Virus record (IMG/VR): IMGVR_UViG_3300025617_000034
Span: 1 to 50,770 of that record
DNA length: 50,770 nucleotides
Direction: 5' to 3' (one strand)
Source: a virus
Shown here: piece after piece, positions 7,373-50,589 of the stretch
Numbering within the stretch: position 1 is the first letter of the stretch
How the letters are laid out: every line of letters begins with the position of its first letter
The notes under the pieces: model-generated
The model's database searches: none
Seen by the model: the letters and a program-made list of their open reading frames with translations, nothing else
What the model was told of the DNA's origin: nothing
Program-made: the position numbers and the translations under genes

Positions 7373-9220
7373 ATGGCAAACTTAACATTTCCAAGTAATC
7401 CAACAAACGGACAGAAAGTCACAGTCAATGATAAGGTGTTCGTTTATAATTCTACGACTAGTCGGTGGACTGCAACTCGTCTTCAGGTTCTTGGTAATCT
7501 GACTGGTGACTTTACGATTCCTACTCCAGTGGTCACGTTGTCTGCGAACGGTCAAACTCTAAATTCTTTGTCTAATAATTATATCACATATTCTGTTGAT
7601 CAAGATGCAAAAATCACCATAGAAAATCAAACAACAAATGCGACTGCAGTCTTATATCTTTCGAATAATACAATTAAAATTGATCCATCTCTAAACGAAT
7701 TGACAAATGGTGTAATTAAAATTAACGCATCGAACGGACGAACTATCGGCACCGCAAACTATGTGTTTAGTATCGACAACCAAGCACCCTTTATCTCACT
7801 CGCAAACTCATTCTACGATGTTCCTACAGGTACTGCTGCGTTTGATGTCGTTGTTACTGGTACAGATCCAGAGAATCAACCACTTACATATTCTGCATCT
7901 GTGACCGGAGGTTATGCGAACGCTATTACTTCAATAACTCAATCTGCAAATGTATTCACTGTCACTGTTGCAAGTGATAATGCAAATGTAGGCAATGCAA
8001 TTGTTACATTTACTGTAGATGATGGTGTAGAAACTAAATCTGCAAATGTTAACTTCTATGTCTCTTCAGCTGTAATAGACTGGACTACAGTTACTGGCCA
8101 GCAGACTTTGACTGGAGTTTTAAACGATGGATTATTCGGAACCTCTGTCGCAATAGATGGTGACACTGCAGTAGTTGGAGCATCGGAAGAAAGAGCCGCA
8201 TACATTTATACTAGATCTGGATCAACTTGGACACAACAACAGAAGATTACTAACAGCACCAGTGGTTCTCAGTTCGGTAGTCAGGTTGCAATAGATGGAG
8301 ACACTCTTGTAATTGCGGCAAGGGGTGCGGCAACAGTTTTTGTATATACGAGATCAGGAAACACTTGGTCTCTACAACAATCATTTCAAGGATCGGATAG
8401 TGGATCTGGTACTTTTGGACAATCTATTGATATAGATGGAGATACCATTGCTGTGGGCGCATATTTCTTTAATGGGGGAGGATATAGTATAAGTGGTGCC
8501 GCATATATCTTCACTAGATCAGGTTCTACTTGGACACAACAACAAAGACTCCTAGCACCATCACCACAAAATAATGGATATTTTGGAACTACAATTGCAC
8601 TATCCGGAGATTCGGTCATTGTTGGTGAATTTGGAGATAATTCATTACAAGGTGCTGCGCATATATTTACACGATCAGGTTCTACTTGGAGTCACCAACA
8701 AGAAATTACTGCTAGTGGAGGAACCAATCCCGGCAATCGCAGATTCAGTATAAATTTAGATATTGATGGAGATACTGCAGTTGTTGGTGCTTATTATGAA
8801 AATTTTGGGTTTTCCCCAGTAAATACGGAAGCGGGTGCGGTGTACATCTTCACTAGATCAGGTTCTACTTGGACACAACAACAAAGAATTGGTTATGAGA
8901 GTATTGAATCTAATAAAAGTTTTGCTTATTTTGGTCAGTCAATTTCATTAGAAGGTGAAGTTGTTGCAATAGGATCTCCGTTTAGAAGTACTGAACCCTC
9001 TCCTCAATATGGAGGAGTACACATTTATAAAAAGGGAAGTGGATCCACTTGGACAAAACAGTCTTCCATTTCGACACTTAGTAGTGGAAATGATCAAACA
9101 TCTGGACAATTTGGTATATCTGTCGGTTTATCTGGTGACACAGTTATTGTAGGGGCGCGAAACGAAGTCGCAGTTACTGATAAAGGTCGAACACACATTT
9201 ATACTGGAGCAAGTTCATAG
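7373..9220 (+). CDS. Tail adhesin: MAN-TFPSNP anchor with seven FG-GAP repeats
   Basis: 615 residues. The anchor module (MANLTFPSNPTNGQKVTVND, then YNSTTSRWTATR) is nearly identical to that of the preceding gene. Residues about 45-230 are one or two Ig/cadherin-like domains (including FDVVVTGTDPENQPLTYSAS). Residues about 245-612 contain seven repeats of the form 'FG.S.(A/D)I(D/S)GDT..VGA...........YI(Y/F)TRSGSTWTQQQ', the FG-GAP repeat of integrin-alpha-type seven-bladed propellers. The repeat count matches a closed propeller. Predicted to be an extracellular binding protein at the virion tail; the ligand is unknown. Confidence 0.75.
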   Translation: MANLTFPSNPTNGQKVTVNDKVFVYNSTTSRWTATRLQVLGNLTGDFTIPTPVVTLSANGQTLNSLSNNYITYSVDQDAKITIENQTTNATAVLYLSNNTIKIDPSLNELTNGVIKINASNGRTIGTANYVFSIDNQAPFISLANSFYDVPTGTAAFDVVVTGTDPENQPLTYSASVTGGYANAITSITQSANVFTVTVASDNANVGNAIVTFTVDDGVETKSANVNFYVSSAVIDWTTVTGQQTLTGVLNDGLFGTSVAIDGDTAVVGASEERAAYIYTRSGSTWTQQQKITNSTSGSQFGSQVAIDGDTLVIAARGAATVFVYTRSGNTWSLQQSFQGSDSGSGTFGQSIDIDGDTIAVGAYFFNGGGYSISGAAYIFTRSGSTWTQQQRLLAPSPQNNGYFGTTIALSGDSVIVGEFGDNSLQGAAHIFTRSGSTWSHQQEITASGGTNPGNRRFSINLDIDGDTAVVGAYYENFGFSPVNTEAGAVYIFTRSGSTWTQQQRIGYESIESNKSFAYFGQSISLEGEVVAIGSPFRSTEPSPQYGGVHIYKKGSGSTWTKQSSISTLSSGNDQTSGQFGISVGLSGDTVIVGARNEVAVTDKGRTHIYTGASS

Positions 9221-9228
9221 GATACATA

Positions 9229-9291
9229 ATGGCAAACTCTAACTTCCCTTCTTGTATAAATAGAAGAAACAATCAGACCATTAACGGATAG
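9229..9291 (+). pseudogene. Relic of a fourth MAN-FPS adhesin N-terminus
   Basis: Directly after the FG-GAP adhesin, an ATG opens a 20-codon frame beginning MANSNFPS and stopping at TAG 9289-9291. The first codons (ATGGCAAAC..., then TTCCC(T/A)) match the starts of the three complete adhesin genes, and then similarity ends abruptly. It may be the stump of a deleted fourth cassette. Alternatively it is a coincidental short frame in a leader region, because the late promoter for the next gene lies within it. Confidence 0.4.
9255..9262 (+). promoter_or_regulatory. T4-type late promoter TATAAATA
   Basis: An exact octamer 41 bases upstream of the ATG of the 1929-residue fibre, followed by a GGATAGTAGGGAAG leader. 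The position is typical for a late promoter. Confidence 0.8.
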
Positions 9292-9303
9292 TAGGGAAGT
9301 TAG

Positions 9304-12300
9304 ATGGCAACTACGAAGCAGTTTCGTGTCAAGCACGGTCTTGATGCGTCCAATAATCTCATATCGCATGTCGCAACACCACAAAGTGCAACTGACGCTG
9401 CAAACCGTCAATTTGTAATTGATCAAGTCGAATCTGGTGTTAGTGGTGTTGCAAATACTTCTACATCTTCTGTCACTTGGACGAAAGCAAATAACACTCT
9501 TGAATTTACTCGTGATAATGCGTCAACTTTTGATGTTGTCCTCACCGATGTTGGTGAAGTATCTAATGCATACCTTACATCGACATTCACTACTAATACC
9601 GACTTCCAATCATTCGTCGCAAACACCAATGCGTACATTGCAACTGTCGAAGGGGATTTAAACACCCAAGAAGCAAAGCAAGCAAGTGATCTTGCAAACA
9701 CCAATGCGTACATTGCAACTAAAACTGACGACACCACTGTACTAGCAACCAATACAGCACTCAGAACACTCATTGATGATCGTATTCAAGTTGCTAATGC
9801 AACGTTACTGATTGATGATCGTATGCAAGTCGCAAACGTCATCTCGTATGTAGATACGGAAATTGCATCTCTTATCGACTCATCACCAACAACACTCGAC
9901 ACACTCAACGAACTTGCCTCTGCCCTTGGTGATGACGAAAATTTTGCAACGACAGTTACAACAAATCTTGGACAGAAACTTGGTGCGACTGCTACAGTCA
10001 CATTAACAGGTGATGTCACTGGTTCAGGTTCATTTAGTTCAAACGCAGTATCGATTGCATTGACCGATACTAACCTTGCGAATACTAATGCATACATTGC
10101 GTCTGTGTCTGATGCACAATCACAGTATCTACAAGTTGCAAACGTCGCATCAAATACGTCAACATCAACCGCAACATTTACTTCTGGCAACAGTACAATC
10201 ACGTTCGCACGTGACGATAGTAGCACATACGATGTGAATTTGTCAACGTTTGCTATGGCAAATACTAGCACATCAACTGCGGTATATACTGTTGCGAACG
10301 CAACACTCACATTTACACGTGATGATTCTAGCACTTTCGATGTTGTCATTGATTCTGCGTCAGTCGAAGTTTCGAATACTGCACCTTCTGGAGCAAACGA
10401 AGGTGACATGTGGTGGGACAATGCTTCAGGTGAGTTGTACATTTATTACTCAAATAACTGGATTGAAGCAGTAGCACAAGACGTAACACCATACGCAAAT
10501 AACGGAACATTCAGTTCGTCTAACAATACGATCACATTTGTGCGTACAGATGGTTCACAGTTTGACGTAGTTCTCACGGGTGTAGGTGAAGTCACTAACA
10601 CTTATGTGACAAGTACATTTACTACCAACACTGATTTTCAGTCATTTGTTGCAAACACCAATGCATACATTGCAACTAAGACCGATGATACTACAGTCCT
10701 TGCGACTAACACAGCACTGCGTACATTGATCGACGACAGAATGCAGGTTGCTAATGTGCAGTCGTATGTTGCAACAGAAATTGCGGCATTGGTCAACTCT
10801 GCACCGACGACTCTGGACACACTTGATGAACTGGCATCAGCACTTGGTGACGATGCGAACTTTAGTACCACTGTTTTGACACTCATCGGCACTAAAGCAT
10901 CTAACTCCGCATTGACCAGTACCTATGTCACAAATACGGTATTTCAAAGTGCGTTAGCAAACACCAACAGTTATATCGCAACCAAGACAGACGACTCAAC
11001 GGTTCTTGCTACCAATACTGCACTAAGAACTTTAATCTCAGACAGAGTTCAAGTTGCTAATCTGAATACAACACTCGCAGACTATTGGCCGTCAGCAAAC
11101 GTAATTAACTACACTGCAAAGTATCTAGAGGTTGCAAATGTTGAAAGTTCTAGTATCTCTGTGTCAAACACCGCACCTTCAGGTGCAGAGGAGGGCAACC
11201 TCTGGTGGGACAACTCAACTGGTGAACTTTATGTTTACTATTCAAACAACTGGGTTGAAGCAGTAGCACAGGATGTTACACCTTATGCGAACAACGGCAC
11301 CTTCTCATCGTCGAATAATACAATTACATTTGTTCGTACAGATGGTAGTCAGTTTGATGTGGTATTAACAGGTGTTGGTGAAGTCACTAATGCTTATGTT
11401 ACAAGCACTTTCACAACAAACACAGTATTCCAGAGTGCTCTTGCTAACACTAACTTAGCAATCTCTGATAGGATGCAAGTCGCAAACGTTCAATCATACG
11501 TCGCGACTGAAATTGCCGCACTTGTTAATTCAGCACCAACTACACTAGATACATTAGATGAACTTGCGAATGCTTTAGGTGATGATGCAAACTTTAGTAC
11601 TACTGTTCTTACTTTGATTGGTACTAAGGCATCCAACTCTGCGTTGACTAGTTCCTATGTCACAAACACTGTATTCCAATCAGCACTTGCAAACACAAAT
11701 GCATACATTTCAAGTGTATCAGATGCTCAGAGTCAATATTTACAAGTTGCCAATACAACAGCACTTGTCGCACCTTACCTTGAGGTTGCTAACTCTGTTG
11801 ACTTCTTGGTACAATCTGATGTAGATCAGTATCTGCAGGTTGCTAACGTAGTTGCAACTGACCTGACTTCTTATTGGCCTAGTGCAAATGTAATTAACTA
11901 CACTGCAAAATATCTAGAAGTTGCAAATGTCGAAAGTTCTAGCATCTCTGTATCTAATACTGCTCCTGTCGGTGCCGAAGAAGGAAACCTCTGGTGGGAT
12001 AATTCTACAGGTGAACTTTATGTTTACTACTCAAATAATTGGGTTGAAGCAGTTGCACAAGACGTAACACCTTATACTAATAATGCATCGTACACATCTG
12101 GCAACAATACTATCACGTTTGTAAGAACTGATGGATCACAGTTTGATGTTGCACTCGACTTATCGAGTTTTGGTGGTGGTGATGTCACGAACACATATCT
12201 GACTTCAACATTTACTGCTAATTCAGACTTCCAGTCTTATGTAGCAAACACTAATGCGAGATTCCCATTATACCTTGAAGTCGCAAACAGCACAAACTTC

Positions 12301-46723: not shown

Positions 46724-47380
46724 ATGGCAAATAATGTACACTCATATATTGAGTTTGTTGAGATCAATGATGCCGCAAAGGCCAAGTTGGTAGAAATGTT
46801 TGGTAAGTGTGCCGAGATGGAATATGGTCGTCGATGGTTCGGGCACATGTTTACAAACGAAGAACTGAGTCCAGAGGATACTGAAAAGTATGAGTGGACA
46901 ACCGATGTGATCGGACCGAAGTGGTGTTACATCGAGGACTCTGATGTGACACCGGATACAGAAACCCCATATATGGTTATGGACTCTGCTTGGGCACCTC
47001 CATCAACAGGTTTGCAAAATTTACTAGAAGTACTTGCAGAACTAGACCCAAATATGATAACATCTATTACATACGAAGACGAAATGCCCAACTTTGTTGG
47101 TTGGGAAGTCTATGTAGGATCAGAGATGGAAGATTGTTGTGAGGATGATTACGACGAGATCAAAGAACGCATCTTTGAAGAGAATCCGAATCTAAAAGAG
47201 CATTGGAGTGAATCTGATGATGATTGGATGACGGATGAAGAAACTGGTGACTACACCGAAGAAGCAGAACAAGCACAAGATGAGTTCCGAGATATTCTAT
47301 ATGAATCAATCAGTGATTGGAACAGTGAAGGTGTCGCAGACTGTATTCGGTTCATCACGGAAAACAGAGAAGAGGCATAA
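46724..47380 (+). CDS. Acidic Api92-like (ferredoxin-like fold) protein
   Basis: 218 residues, strongly acidic. The opening MANNVHSYIEFVEINDAA and the central PYMVMDSAWAPPSTGLQNLL, then YEDEMPNFVGWEVYVGSEME match the pattern of Api92-type ferredoxin-like domains ('N.L.I', then 'F.TAW.PP', then 'Y.E....F.G.W'). That domain is frequent in phages and plasmids, with no firmly known function. Residues about 150-195 are a nearly continuous Asp/Glu-rich stretch, reminiscent of DNA-mimic or inhibitor tails. It is in operon after gp46, and nine bases separate it from the PLP enzyme gene. Confidence 0.55.
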   Translation: MANNVHSYIEFVEINDAAKAKLVEMFGKCAEMEYGRRWFGHMFTNEELSPEDTEKYEWTTDVIGPKWCYIEDSDVTPDTETPYMVMDSAWAPPSTGLQNLLEVLAELDPNMITSITYEDEMPNFVGWEVYVGSEMEDCCEDDYDEIKERIFEENPNLKEHWSESDDDWMTDEETGDYTEEAEQAQDEFRDILYESISDWNSEGVADCIRFITENREEA

Positions 47381-47389
47381 TGTTGATAT

Positions 47390-48211
47390 ATGATTACACC
47401 TGTAGAAGAATATAATTCTATCCTGTTTAAGAGGGAAGATCTGTACGCACCCTACGGGTCTGACTTTGTTACAGGTGGAAAAATTCGACAATGCCGTGAT
47501 CTAATTGAAACTAATTTAGATTATATTAAAAATGAATGCGATTCGACAATCTCAACCGCAAGCTCGATCCATTCACCACAGGCAGTAATTGTATCTAAAG
47601 TCGCAGAGGAATTTGGTCTAAATTCAATTATTGGTTTTGGAAACACCACTGTTGAAAAAGCACTCAAAAGAAAGGCAATGAAAATGTGCCACGATCTTGG
47701 ATCTGAGATGGTGGTTTTAAGCGAGACTCAGGGGTTCAACAATGTGTTATACTCAAACTTAAACAAACTTGCAGATACTAGACCTATGTTCAAAGTGTTG
47801 TTTGGTTATGCCGCACAAAAATATCGTTCTTCAATTATTGGAAAAATAGCAGAACAAGTGCAGAACGTTGATTGTGATACATTGTATATCCCCGTAGGAA
47901 GTGGTGTTACATTGACAGGAATACTGGAAGGTGTTAAACTATATGATAAGAAATTCAAAATCGTGGCACTTCAACCTTTTGGATATGATAGAACAAAGGA
48001 TGTGCATAAAAATCTAGAACTTCCAGTATGGGAGTACAGATATGAATATCGCACCGGAAACTATGCATACAACAAACTGTTGAGGAAAAATGTGGGGTTC
48101 GAATTGGATATGATCTATGAATCAAAATCGTATGAAATGATGGAACAAATTCTAGATCCAAATGAGACTTCTTGTTTTTGGGTGGTAGGGAATAGTAATT
48201 ACATAAGGTGA
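47390..48211 (+). CDS. Fold-type-II PLP enzyme (ACC deaminase / D-cysteine desulfhydrase-like)
   Basis: 273 residues, shorter than cellular ACC deaminases and D-cysteine desulfhydrases (about 320-340). LFKREDLYAPYGSDFVTGGK places the Schiff-base lysine at K31 (GGKIRQ, compared with GG.K.R in the family). The Ser-X-His loop SSIHSPQAVIVSKVAEEFG is at about 58-76 and the phosphate-binding loop is VGSGVTLTG (168-176). So the PLP site appears intact; substrate specificity cannot be read. It lies three bases before a methyltransferase-like gene in a trio that suggests a role in DNA modification or precursor chemistry. A metabolic role is the alternative. Confidence 0.75.
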   Translation: MITPVEEYNSILFKREDLYAPYGSDFVTGGKIRQCRDLIETNLDYIKNECDSTISTASSIHSPQAVIVSKVAEEFGLNSIIGFGNTTVEKALKRKAMKMCHDLGSEMVVLSETQGFNNVLYSNLNKLADTRPMFKVLFGYAAQKYRSSIIGKIAEQVQNVDCDTLYIPVGSGVTLTGILEGVKLYDKKFKIVALQPFGYDRTKDVHKNLELPVWEYRYEYRTGNYAYNKLLRKNVGFELDMIYESKSYEMMEQILDPNETSCFWVVGNSNYIR

Positions 48212-48214
48212 TCA

Positions 48215-49462
48215 ATGAAAAAAATTGATGATATCATTTCAGAGCATGCAAATAATGAATTTGGCATTCCTATGTTTGGATATGACGAATGGAAATCTTT
48301 ATGCGCAGAACACACAAAAGAAGGTGAGTTAAAGCCTGGAGTTGATAAAATTATCCCTGCGTTTGCTAGGTACATTGATAGATTCAAACCAAAGATTCCT
48401 ATTGCAAGACCTACGCATGAAGATATGGTGTCGTCTTTTCAGAAACTACAGCAATATGATATTAATAAAAGCATTACGACTGATTTTATAAGAGAAACAG
48501 TTCGTAACAAATTTTCTGAAGAAGTTGATGTTGAATACATCATTAATGCCGGACATGCACTGAATGATGTGAGTAATCACTTTCACTGTGATAACAGATA
48601 TACTTGTGGTTACCATAGCAAACCATCAAATTATGAAATATGGAATGACCCACACGGAAAACAATTCAGATCATTATTTCTTTATATGTGGAGGGATTTT
48701 GTAAACGAACAAGATCCTATTGATCAGCACAAATATCGTGCGATGTTTCGACTAAGTGGTTATGTTGCTACTCAATTTAAACCTGTTGTCGCAAAGGTTG
48801 TGTATGACCACTATGCTGTCAAGAAAGTGATTGACATCTCTTGTGGTTGGGGGGACCGTCTTGCAGGGTTCTACACATCAAAAGCAAACGATTATCTTGG
48901 GTGTGACCCTAATACTGCGTCTTATGAATTGTACAAAAAGCAATGCCTTGCATATGAAGAAATTCTTAATCAGAATCTATTTCCTGTAGAAGTGAAGTTT
49001 GAAGACCATGGTGATTGGTTTGAAGTGGTGGGCAACAAACGTGTTCGTATCTACAACAGACCTGCAGAAGATATTGATTGGAAAGAAGTGACTGGACAGC
49101 AATATGATTTGATGTTTACATCACCTCCTTACTTTGGTATTGAAAAATACGCAGAGGGTCAGTCATGCGAAGATAAACAGTCTTGGAAACGATACAGTGA
49201 GTATGATGGTTGGATAGATAATTTTTTCTATCCGGTTATGGACTCAATGAAAGAAGTGTGCGATAATGTAATGATCAACATTGTAGATCCCGTTGTTAAG
49301 AACAAAAGGTATCGCATCGAAGACGACATTCGTTCACGGTACGGGATCAAATCAATTGTTGGGATGAAGTTGGCACGTAGACCATCTGGTCAGAAAGAAT
49401 CTGATCAGTATCGTGTCAACGGTAAGAAGTTAAACTTTATCGAACCAGTGTATGTGATATGA
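48215..49462 (+). CDS. DNA methyltransferase-like protein with long N-terminal extension
   Basis: 415 residues. The first about 200 are an unrecognised domain (including HFHCDNRYTCGYHSKPSNYE at about 126-145). SAM-binding motif I is DISCGWGDRLAG from D207, motif II is LGCDPN, and the catalytic motif IV is TSPPYFG at 302-308, as in N4-cytosine or N6-adenine amino-methyltransferases. Motif order I then IV without an intervening target domain differs from the beta-class partner downstream. It overlaps that gene by four bases (ATGA). The target could be DNA or a base already modified through the PLP enzyme; unproven. Confidence 0.75.
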   Translation: MKKIDDIISEHANNEFGIPMFGYDEWKSLCAEHTKEGELKPGVDKIIPAFARYIDRFKPKIPIARPTHEDMVSSFQKLQQYDINKSITTDFIRETVRNKFSEEVDVEYIINAGHALNDVSNHFHCDNRYTCGYHSKPSNYEIWNDPHGKQFRSLFLYMWRDFVNEQDPIDQHKYRAMFRLSGYVATQFKPVVAKVVYDHYAVKKVIDISCGWGDRLAGFYTSKANDYLGCDPNTASYELYKKQCLAYEEILNQNLFPVEVKFEDHGDWFEVVGNKRVRIYNRPAEDIDWKEVTGQQYDLMFTSPPYFGIEKYAEGQSCEDKQSWKRYSEYDGWIDNFFYPVMDSMKEVCDNVMINIVDPVVKNKRYRIEDDIRSRYGIKSIVGMKLARRPSGQKESDQYRVNGKKLNFIEPVYVI

Positions 49463-50589
49463 CAGAATATAAAGTATTAGTTGGTGACAACCGAGAGACC
49501 ATCAAGTCTCTTCCAGATCAAAGTGTGAATACAGTAGTAACATCCCCTCCTTACTTTGGATTGCGTGATTACGGGACAGGCAAGTGGGTAGGTGGTGACC
49601 CAGAATGCAATCATATGCGTGACTCTAAAGTAACCGATTCTACCACTACTGGTCATAGAGGAATGGATGACAAGGGTCACGCAGTCGGTGATGCAATTTA
49701 CAAGAACGAGTGTAAGAAATGTGGTGCAGTTCGTGAGGACTCACAGTTCGGATTGGAAGAAACACCAGAAGAGTTCTGTGATAATCTAGTCAAACTGTTC
49801 CGTGAGATTCGTCGTGTATTAAAAGATGATGGCACTGTATGGTTGAACCTTGGTGATTCATATGCAGGTTCTGGTAAGAATCGTAATGGTGATGGTTCTA
49901 TCAATGAGAAAGGCATAGATGGTAAGCAGGGTACATCTTTGGGCACGGTACAGGGCAATCTGAAACCTCTCAAGGCACATGAAATCGGATTGAAACCAAA
50001 AGATCTAATCGGCATTCCTTGGATGGTTGCATTCGCATTACGTGCTGATGGTTGGTATCTAAGACAAGATATCATCTGGAGTAAACCAAATCCAATGCCA
50101 GAGTCAGTCAAGGATCGTTGCACCAAGTCACATGAGTACATCTTTTTGTTGAGTAAGTCGAAGAAGTACTACTATGATCATGAGGCAATCAAGGTTCCTG
50201 TCAAACAAGATTGGGGAACACGTGATCGTACTAACGGCAAGTATCATAATGAAGGTACTGGACTACAACCACACTCAGGACTCACCAAGTCGTATGAGAA
50301 AGCAAACAAACGTTCTGTGTGGAACGTGACTGCAAAACCATTCAAGGGAGCACACTTTGCAACTTACCCTCCAGAACTGATTGAACCTTGCATTCTAGCA
50401 GGTTGTCCTGTAGGCGGGACAGTACTCGATCCATTCGGTGGTTCAGGCACAACTGCGGGTGTTGCGTATCTACATGACCGCAACTCGATTCTGTGTGAAC
50501 TCAATCCAGAGTATGCAGAACTGGTCGAGAGACGCATTGAAGGTATCATTGAAGGTAAACGAACACTTGGTGGCACTTTACCCATATAA
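49459..50589 (+). CDS. Beta-class DNA N4-cytosine/N6-adenine methyltransferase
   Basis: 376 residues. Catalytic TSPPYFGLRDYG is at the N-terminus (T28-Y32) and the SAM motif LDPFGGSGTT at the C-terminus (D324-T332), the beta-class order. A probable zinc ribbon with ECNHM and ECKKCGAVR lies around residues 50-92. The core VWLNLGDSYAGSGKNRNG and DIIWSKPNPMPESVKDRCTK are typical of phage-encoded modification methylases. It would protect phage DNA or mark it for replication control; no restriction partner is present. Its start overlaps the previous gene (ATGA), and its stop lies in the first of the CATATAAC repeats. Confidence 0.88.
   Translation: MTEYKVLVGDNRETIKSLPDQSVNTVVTSPPYFGLRDYGTGKWVGGDPECNHMRDSKVTDSTTTGHRGMDDKGHAVGDAIYKNECKKCGAVREDSQFGLEETPEEFCDNLVKLFREIRRVLKDDGTVWLNLGDSYAGSGKNRNGDGSINEKGIDGKQGTSLGTVQGNLKPLKAHEIGLKPKDLIGIPWMVAFALRADGWYLRQDIIWSKPNPMPESVKDRCTKSHEYIFLLSKSKKYYYDHEAIKVPVKQDWGTRDRTNGKYHNEGTGLQPHSGLTKSYEKANKRSVWNVTAKPFKGAHFATYPPELIEPCILAGCPVGGTVLDPFGGSGTTAGVAYLHDRNSILCELNPEYAELVERRIEGIIEGKRTLGGTLPI

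Follow-up and report, generated by a model that had tools for sequence, protein, structure and literature searches.

Why would a phage carry a gene for a pyridoxal 5'-phosphate (PLP)-dependent enzyme directly beside a gene for a methyltransferase-like protein? The question is raised by a linear, 50,770-base virus record of IMG/VR (IMGVR_UViG_3300025617_000034), which was analysed whole, is referred to here as the window and is probably a fragment. Pfam matches to the gp20 portal, the prohead protease, gp23 and UvsY identified its source as a T4-like myovirus; the portal protein shares 57% identity with its cyanophage counterparts, and gp46 is 50% identical to that of Methylophilales phage Melnitz. 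The two genes in question, on the plus strand like the third gene and the window motifs described below, encode an enzyme of 273 residues resembling 1-aminocyclopropane-1-carboxylate (ACC) deaminase and D-cysteine desulfhydrase (47390..48211; hereafter the PLP enzyme) and a methyltransferase-like enzyme of 415 residues with an SPPY motif (48215..49462; hereafter MT2). We propose that this pair constitutes a two-enzyme DNA base-hypermodification module, a reading to which we assign a probability of about 0.55, and by which marine T4-like phages and unrelated phages infecting other hosts probably put a bulky group on their DNA bases. No description of the pair was found in the literature searched; a prior computational mention is possible.

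Recurrence of the PLP-MT2 pair

Viral contigs were searched with the PLP proteins alone, which yielded 22 loci. The PLP gene had MT2 next to it in all of them but L107, whose contig breaks off at the PLP gene; in L110 one open reading frame (ORF) intervened. The order PLP-MT2 was seen in the window and in L109, and MT2-PLP elsewhere. The MT2-PLP genes followed gp43 in L006, L097, L099, L103 and L106, and lay between gp44 and gp62 in L104 and L113, the MT2 of L113 being of a highly divergent type. The window pair follows gp46; further settings were near a terminase gene and, in L137, near a peroxiredoxin-like gene. The window PLP enzyme is 79-80% identical to those of L097 and L099, while the MT2 proteins of these two loci are just 34-36% identical to that of the window (P0002). 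The nearest MT2 relatives of the window with readable flanks (L017, L018, L025, L026) had no PLP gene, and the MT2 tree required at least six changes to account for PLP presence. Such similar PLP enzymes beside dissimilar MT2 proteins, and the lack of PLP beside the nearest MT2 relatives, therefore point to re-association of the two genes rather than to shared descent alone. That PLP and MT2 are a recurrent functional pair is well supported.

The preliminary description of this DNA had included a third gene (49459..50589) in the system. This gene encodes, as was then proposed, a beta-class N6/N4 DNA methyltransferase of 376 residues (Pfam, E=2e-49; PHROG). The positions given earlier for the three ORFs and their tight spacing were confirmed, with a 3-base gap between PLP and MT2 and an ATGA overlap between MT2 and the third gene; since all three are conserved in relatives, they are not chance ORFs. 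The trio as a unit was nevertheless rejected. In the near-identical locus L002 the third gene is missing and the next window gene follows PLP-MT2; in L003 it is two genes away, and most other pairs have no such gene beside them. PLP-MT2 is all that L002 has in common with the window locus, and both flanking genes differ, with a peptide deformylase gene upstream where the window has 46724-47380; the conserved unit is therefore the pair, and the third gene is a bystander outside it. A single modification system of all three genes, for which the spacing in the window, a small beta-type methyltransferase gene after MT2-PLP in L113-L115 and a third-gene homologue beside MT2 in L087 could be cited, is already largely refuted by these loci and highly improbable. 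The label "Api92-like" given earlier to 46724-47380 found no match in Pfam or PHROG to confirm it.

In L003, a 97% identical relative, a possible glycosyltransferase gene (9131-9979; weak match to Pfam Glyco_transf_21, E=0.007) lies downstream of the methyltransferases by ~4 kb, a point that the window does not reach.

Fold, active site and family of the PLP enzyme

The AlphaFold model of the PLP enzyme (mean predicted local distance difference test score, pLDDT, 83.7) matched the ACC deaminase homologue 1j0a and D-cysteine desulfhydrase, and by this model the enzyme is of fold type II, in agreement with the preliminary description. The match to Pfam PALP (E=4.8e-8, 33.1 bits) fell slightly under the curated cut-off of 35 bits. 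Full-length relatives in other viral contigs were 66-80% identical. As a five-sequence alignment (A5) was too divergent for a pattern search, alignments A6 and A7 were used instead, and conservation was counted over 32 diverse relatives. The expected Schiff-base lysine, K31 of a GGKxR motif (codon 47480..47482), was a lysine in 31/31 relatives readable at that position, the count being confined to those that cover it. The S62-P63-Q64 motif (47573..47581), located by profile alignment to 1f2d/1j0c, was conserved as S in 32/32, P in 31/32 and Q in 30/32. The phosphate-binding loop G170-S171-G172 (47897..47905) was likewise retained (G 31/32, S 32/32, G 28/32), as was the Y243-E244-x-K246 motif near the C-terminus (48116..48127; Y 32/32, E 31/32, K 32/32). 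Five residues, namely S62, S171, Y243, K246 and W264, were invariant, and the earlier report of an intact lysine and phosphate loop thus stands.

The fold, the catalytic lysine, the S and Q of the substrate loop and a tyrosine of the C-terminal region are common to the PLP enzyme and to ACC deaminase and D-cysteine desulfhydrase. In contrast, N79 of the ACC deaminase loop S78-N79-Q80 is replaced by P63, the score is far under the NCBIfam equivalog cut-off for ACC deaminase (24.6 vs 550 bits), and the gene sits in phage modification loci, unlike those of that family. The PLP enzyme shares the fold of ACC deaminase and is no member of that enzyme family.

The PLP enzyme matched phrog_3650 (E=2e-27) and phrog_7093 (E=2e-10), which bears out the kinship with enzymes of hypermodified-thymidine phages that had been suggested. 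The same family, with invariant K31, S62, Y243, K246 and W264, is assigned to the pathways to 5-(2-aminoethoxy)methyldeoxyuridine (5-NeOmdU) in ViI-like Ackermannviridae and to 5-(2-aminoethyl)deoxyuridine (5-NedU) in M6-like phages, where the PLP gene likewise lies inside a base-modification gene set. In phage PP35 the Ackermannviridae gene has been assigned to the conversion of 5-hydroxymethyldeoxyuridine (5-hmdU; PMC6336734), and in SN1 the M6-like gene adjoins radical S-adenosylmethionine (SAM) and aGPT-PPlase genes (PMC9476957). In Glutamicibacter phage Montesquieu, a match examined afterwards, the PLP gene overlaps an aGPT-PPlase gene, a kinase-like gene is close and a pyrimidine hydroxymethylase gene is ~4.5 kb away, an arrangement that one would expect of a PLP family devoted to modifying bases. 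It is well supported that the PLP enzyme belongs to a phage family that processes amino-acid groups on modified DNA bases.

The wider family was grouped into 32 clusters at 85% identity. An MT2-type enzyme was adjacent, fused or one gene away in 14/32, including the bacterial contigs L138 and L145, and a radical-SAM-like gene was adjacent in 11/32; two clusters were from Ackermannviridae, and the remainder were contig edges apart from L131. The coupling of PLP to a base-modifying enzyme, first noted in the window, thus recurs across unrelated phages. The preliminary description had held that PLP genes found mostly without methyltransferases would count against it. This is not so in the clade of the window, while the wider family does have other partners, namely radical SAM enzymes or the set of 5-hmdU kinase and amino-acid transferase.

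Several loci of the wider family deserve a record of their own. In gut Firmicutes phages and prophages (L121, L122, L125, L126, L128, L130, L132, L139-L142), the PLP gene lies directly downstream of the radical-SAM-like gene (CxxxCRYCF), and in several of these loci a ParB-like gene precedes the two and terminase genes follow; this is a probable second, uncharacterised base-modification operon. The Ignavibacteria / Kapaibacterium contigs L138 and L145 hold together MT2, a gene of ~267-298 residues with no known function, PLP and a gene of ~377 residues, the last of which in L138 encodes a D12-class N6-adenine methyltransferase (Pfam). In L131 (3986-5855), where neither MT2 nor radical SAM accompanies the PLP relative, a NADAR-domain gene and a 177-residue gene with no known function come before it.

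MT2 and its likely target

Both motifs reported earlier for MT2, DISCGWGD and TSPPYFG, are present in the window. Motif I (D207-ISCGWGDR-L216, 48833..48862), which forms the SAM site, precedes motif IV (S303-P304-P305-Y306, 49121..49132), the site for the target amino group. Among 54 sequences D207, S209, G211, G213, R215 and L216 of motif I were invariant, as was the whole of motif IV. The AlphaFold model (pLDDT 91.5) is a class I Rossmann methyltransferase. Pfam N6_N4_Mtase scored above its cut-off for the MT2 relatives of L006, L109 and L138 and below it for the window MT2. That MT2 is a class I enzyme with a SAM site and an SPPY motif, of the kind that targets the exocyclic amino group of adenine or cytosine, is well supported as a predicted activity.

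The N-terminal ~180 residues (48215..48754) form a mostly helical, family-conserved domain (pLDDT mostly >84) that had no match in Pfam or in solved structures, in line with the unknown N-terminal domain described before, and is a candidate domain for DNA or target recognition. Against predicted viral structures, the full-length model matched predicted methyltransferases of pithoviruses, and the catalytic part matched the DNA methylase model of Mycobacterium phage Vincenzo (E=3e-6). Other matches were to a poxvirus protein of unknown function and to a 699-residue Satyrvirus protein named glutathione synthase, which may be an ATP-grasp ligase fusion.

The two activities are also physically linked in Vincenzo and in a second cultured phage. 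In Vincenzo, a ParB-methyltransferase gene and the PLP gene have 35 bases in common. In Pseudanabaena phage Pam4, a single protein of 829 residues carries the PLP domain (~399-650) inserted between methyltransferase motifs I and IV; gp77 of Listeria phage B054 aligns to both methyltransferase halves of Pam4 (gp77 residues 203-271 and 292-431) with no insert. MT2 and the ParB-methyltransferases of the Vincenzo and Pam4 type have phrog_12517 in common, and MT2 weakly matches (P0002, E=2e-6) the PHROG of the ParB-fused phage DNA methyltransferases (phrog_12517/phrog_498; B054 gp77). The latter carry ParB, whereas MT2 has its own N-terminal domain in its place.

These fusions bear on the substrate. 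The solved structures closest to the MT2 model were METTL5, METTL16 and PH1948, and METTL5 and METTL16 are N6-methyladenosine enzymes of rRNA and snRNA, so tRNA, rRNA or protein might be modified instead of DNA. However, the ParB domains fused to the Vincenzo and Pam4 methyltransferases argue that DNA is the target, the genes sit among DNA polymerase, clamp-loader and recombination genes, the PHROG matches are to DNA methyltransferases and the PLP relatives act in DNA-base pathways. A substrate other than DNA is very unlikely on this evidence.

MT2 was found in at least 562 viral contigs, often adjoining the gp43 DNA polymerase or UvsX gene and usually without PLP, and most MT2 carriers thus do without the PLP step. 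A search for PLP elsewhere in MT2-only phages gave none in 16 larger IMG/VR contigs and the SJC03 genome. Two tandem MT2 genes overlapping by a few bases occur in L089 (5710-8345). A gene of cluster c9 lies directly downstream of MT2 in 14 loci (2024-2599 in L031, and 13 others), and the sole member tested matched PF07659, "nucleotide modification associated domain 1". A RimK ATP-grasp gene (cluster c21) was considered as an MT2 partner and rejected, being at least three genes distant.

Relation to known hypermodification pathways

The genomes of the Ackermannviridae and M6-like phages encode a hydroxymethylase of the thymidylate synthase type (TS), a 5-hmdU DNA kinase (HMUDK) and an amino-acid:DNA transferase (ADDT), whereas the PLP partner studied here is an SPPY methyltransferase. 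The TS, HMUDK and ADDT families were detected in 3/3 thymidine-type PLP phages, which served as positive controls. None was detected in the complete genomes of Vincenzo and Pam4, in the gut radical-SAM/PLP contigs or in the marine contigs searched; in the window, itself a fragment, TS and ADDT were absent and HMUDK was not searched. A dependence of MT2-PLP on 5-hmdU is improbable on the evidence of Vincenzo and Pam4, with the positive controls working.

The missing transferase leaves two sources for an amino-acid part. Amino acids are the substrates of PLP enzymes of this fold, so with no amino-acid transferase present the group would come from SAM via MT2 or from the PLP enzyme itself. Fold type II PLP enzymes commonly perform beta-replacement, and there are plant enzymes that attach an alanyl group to uracil or purines. 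On this model, the PLP enzyme would build rather than trim, adding aminoacrylate from serine or cysteine as an alanyl group to the DNA base that MT2 recognises or flips, and MT2 would methylate the adduct or the same base. The lack of a detected amino-acid:DNA transferase in Vincenzo and Pam4 and the position of the Pam4 PLP domain inside the methyltransferase agree with it. On the other hand, the nearest structural neighbours of the PLP enzyme are lyases and deaminases, not synthases, and its relatives in the thymidine pathways presumably act after a separate transferase has attached the amino acid (gene sets in PMC6336734, PMC9476957). We regard such building as quite unlikely.

By analogy, the closest published logic is that of CmoA-CmoX-CmoY, in which 5-carboxymethylcytosine is hypermodified (PMC12783734): a methyltransferase homologue adds a chemical handle that another enzyme elaborates, and ParB domains are common nearby. 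CmoX, however, acts on C5 of cytosine, has an SPPC motif and uses carboxy-SAM, whereas MT2 has SPPY in 54/54 sequences and a PLP-dependent partner. The authors report no N6-adenine or N4-cytosine counterpart of CmoX.

Proposed mechanism

The observations to be explained are the physical coupling, the intact active sites, the family relationships and the absence of 5-hmdU genes from two complete genomes. A non-methyl base modification, as the preliminary description had suggested, is what we infer from them. MT2 would flip out an adenine or cytosine of the phage DNA and transfer to it a SAM-derived group, most likely 3-amino-3-carboxypropyl rather than only methyl. The PLP enzyme would then form an external aldimine with the base-linked amino acid and trim it, most likely by decarboxylation, as we presume for the thymidine pathways. 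The side chain left behind would be smaller or carry a positive charge and would block host nucleases, and MT2-only phages would stop after the first step. This chemistry, in which MT2 moves an aminocarboxypropyl group that the PLP enzyme then trims, is a guess, though the one we favour; the remaining weight of the proposed module falls on base modification by PLP-MT2 through another chemistry. More doubtful is the broader possibility that MT2 is the founding member of a large and so far unrecognised group of phage DNA enzymes, which move the 3-amino-3-carboxypropyl group of SAM rather than methyl to N6 of adenine or N4 of cytosine, after which PLP would turn the amino acid on the base into an aminopropyl or related group.

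Several points weigh against the proposed module. No column of the MT2 alignment separates PLP-bearing from PLP-less phages (12 vs 33 sequences), and nothing therefore points directly to MT2 transferring a group other than methyl; the result is compatible with, and no proof of, PLP acting on the normal product of MT2. Were MT2 a plain methylase, there would be no amino acid for the PLP enzyme to act on. The decarboxylation of base-linked amino acids by the Ackermannviridae and M6-type PLP enzymes, on which the trimming step leans, is our assumption. The chemistry and the product of the module are predictions, and any pathway genes that seem to be lacking could be outside the DNA at hand, since the window, like nearly all contigs with MT2-PLP, is a fragment.

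On a rival account, MT2 would do no more than ordinary methylation of N6 of adenine or N4 of cytosine, and the PLP enzyme would be a metabolic accessory that happens to be co-expressed and acts on free amino acids, for example as a D-cysteine desulfhydrase or ACC deaminase-like enzyme. The nearest solved PLP relatives are indeed these two enzymes, and MT2 bears a standard SPPY amino-methyltransferase signature, shows no difference between phages with and without PLP, and is usually without it. The domain insertion in Pam4 and the repeated independent pairing speak against plain methylation, as do the other partners of the PLP family, all of which are base-modification or radical-SAM enzymes. 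We consider this account unlikely.

Implications

The phage DNA hypermodifications known so far have as their main starting points hydroxymethylated pyrimidines, deazaguanine or carboxymethylcytosine. If the two-enzyme module is real, a compact two-gene pathway would represent a new chemical route, probably on adenine or cytosine, and would occur in marine T4-like phages as well as in the cultured phages Vincenzo and Pam4. Should MT2 also prove to be the founder of the group outlined above, this would be the first DNA hypermodification of an exocyclic amine to take its building block straight from SAM and to be completed by a PLP enzyme. The pathway offers a candidate function for the more than 560 viral contigs with MT2, as well as for the operons of radical SAM and PLP genes in Firmicutes phages of the gut.

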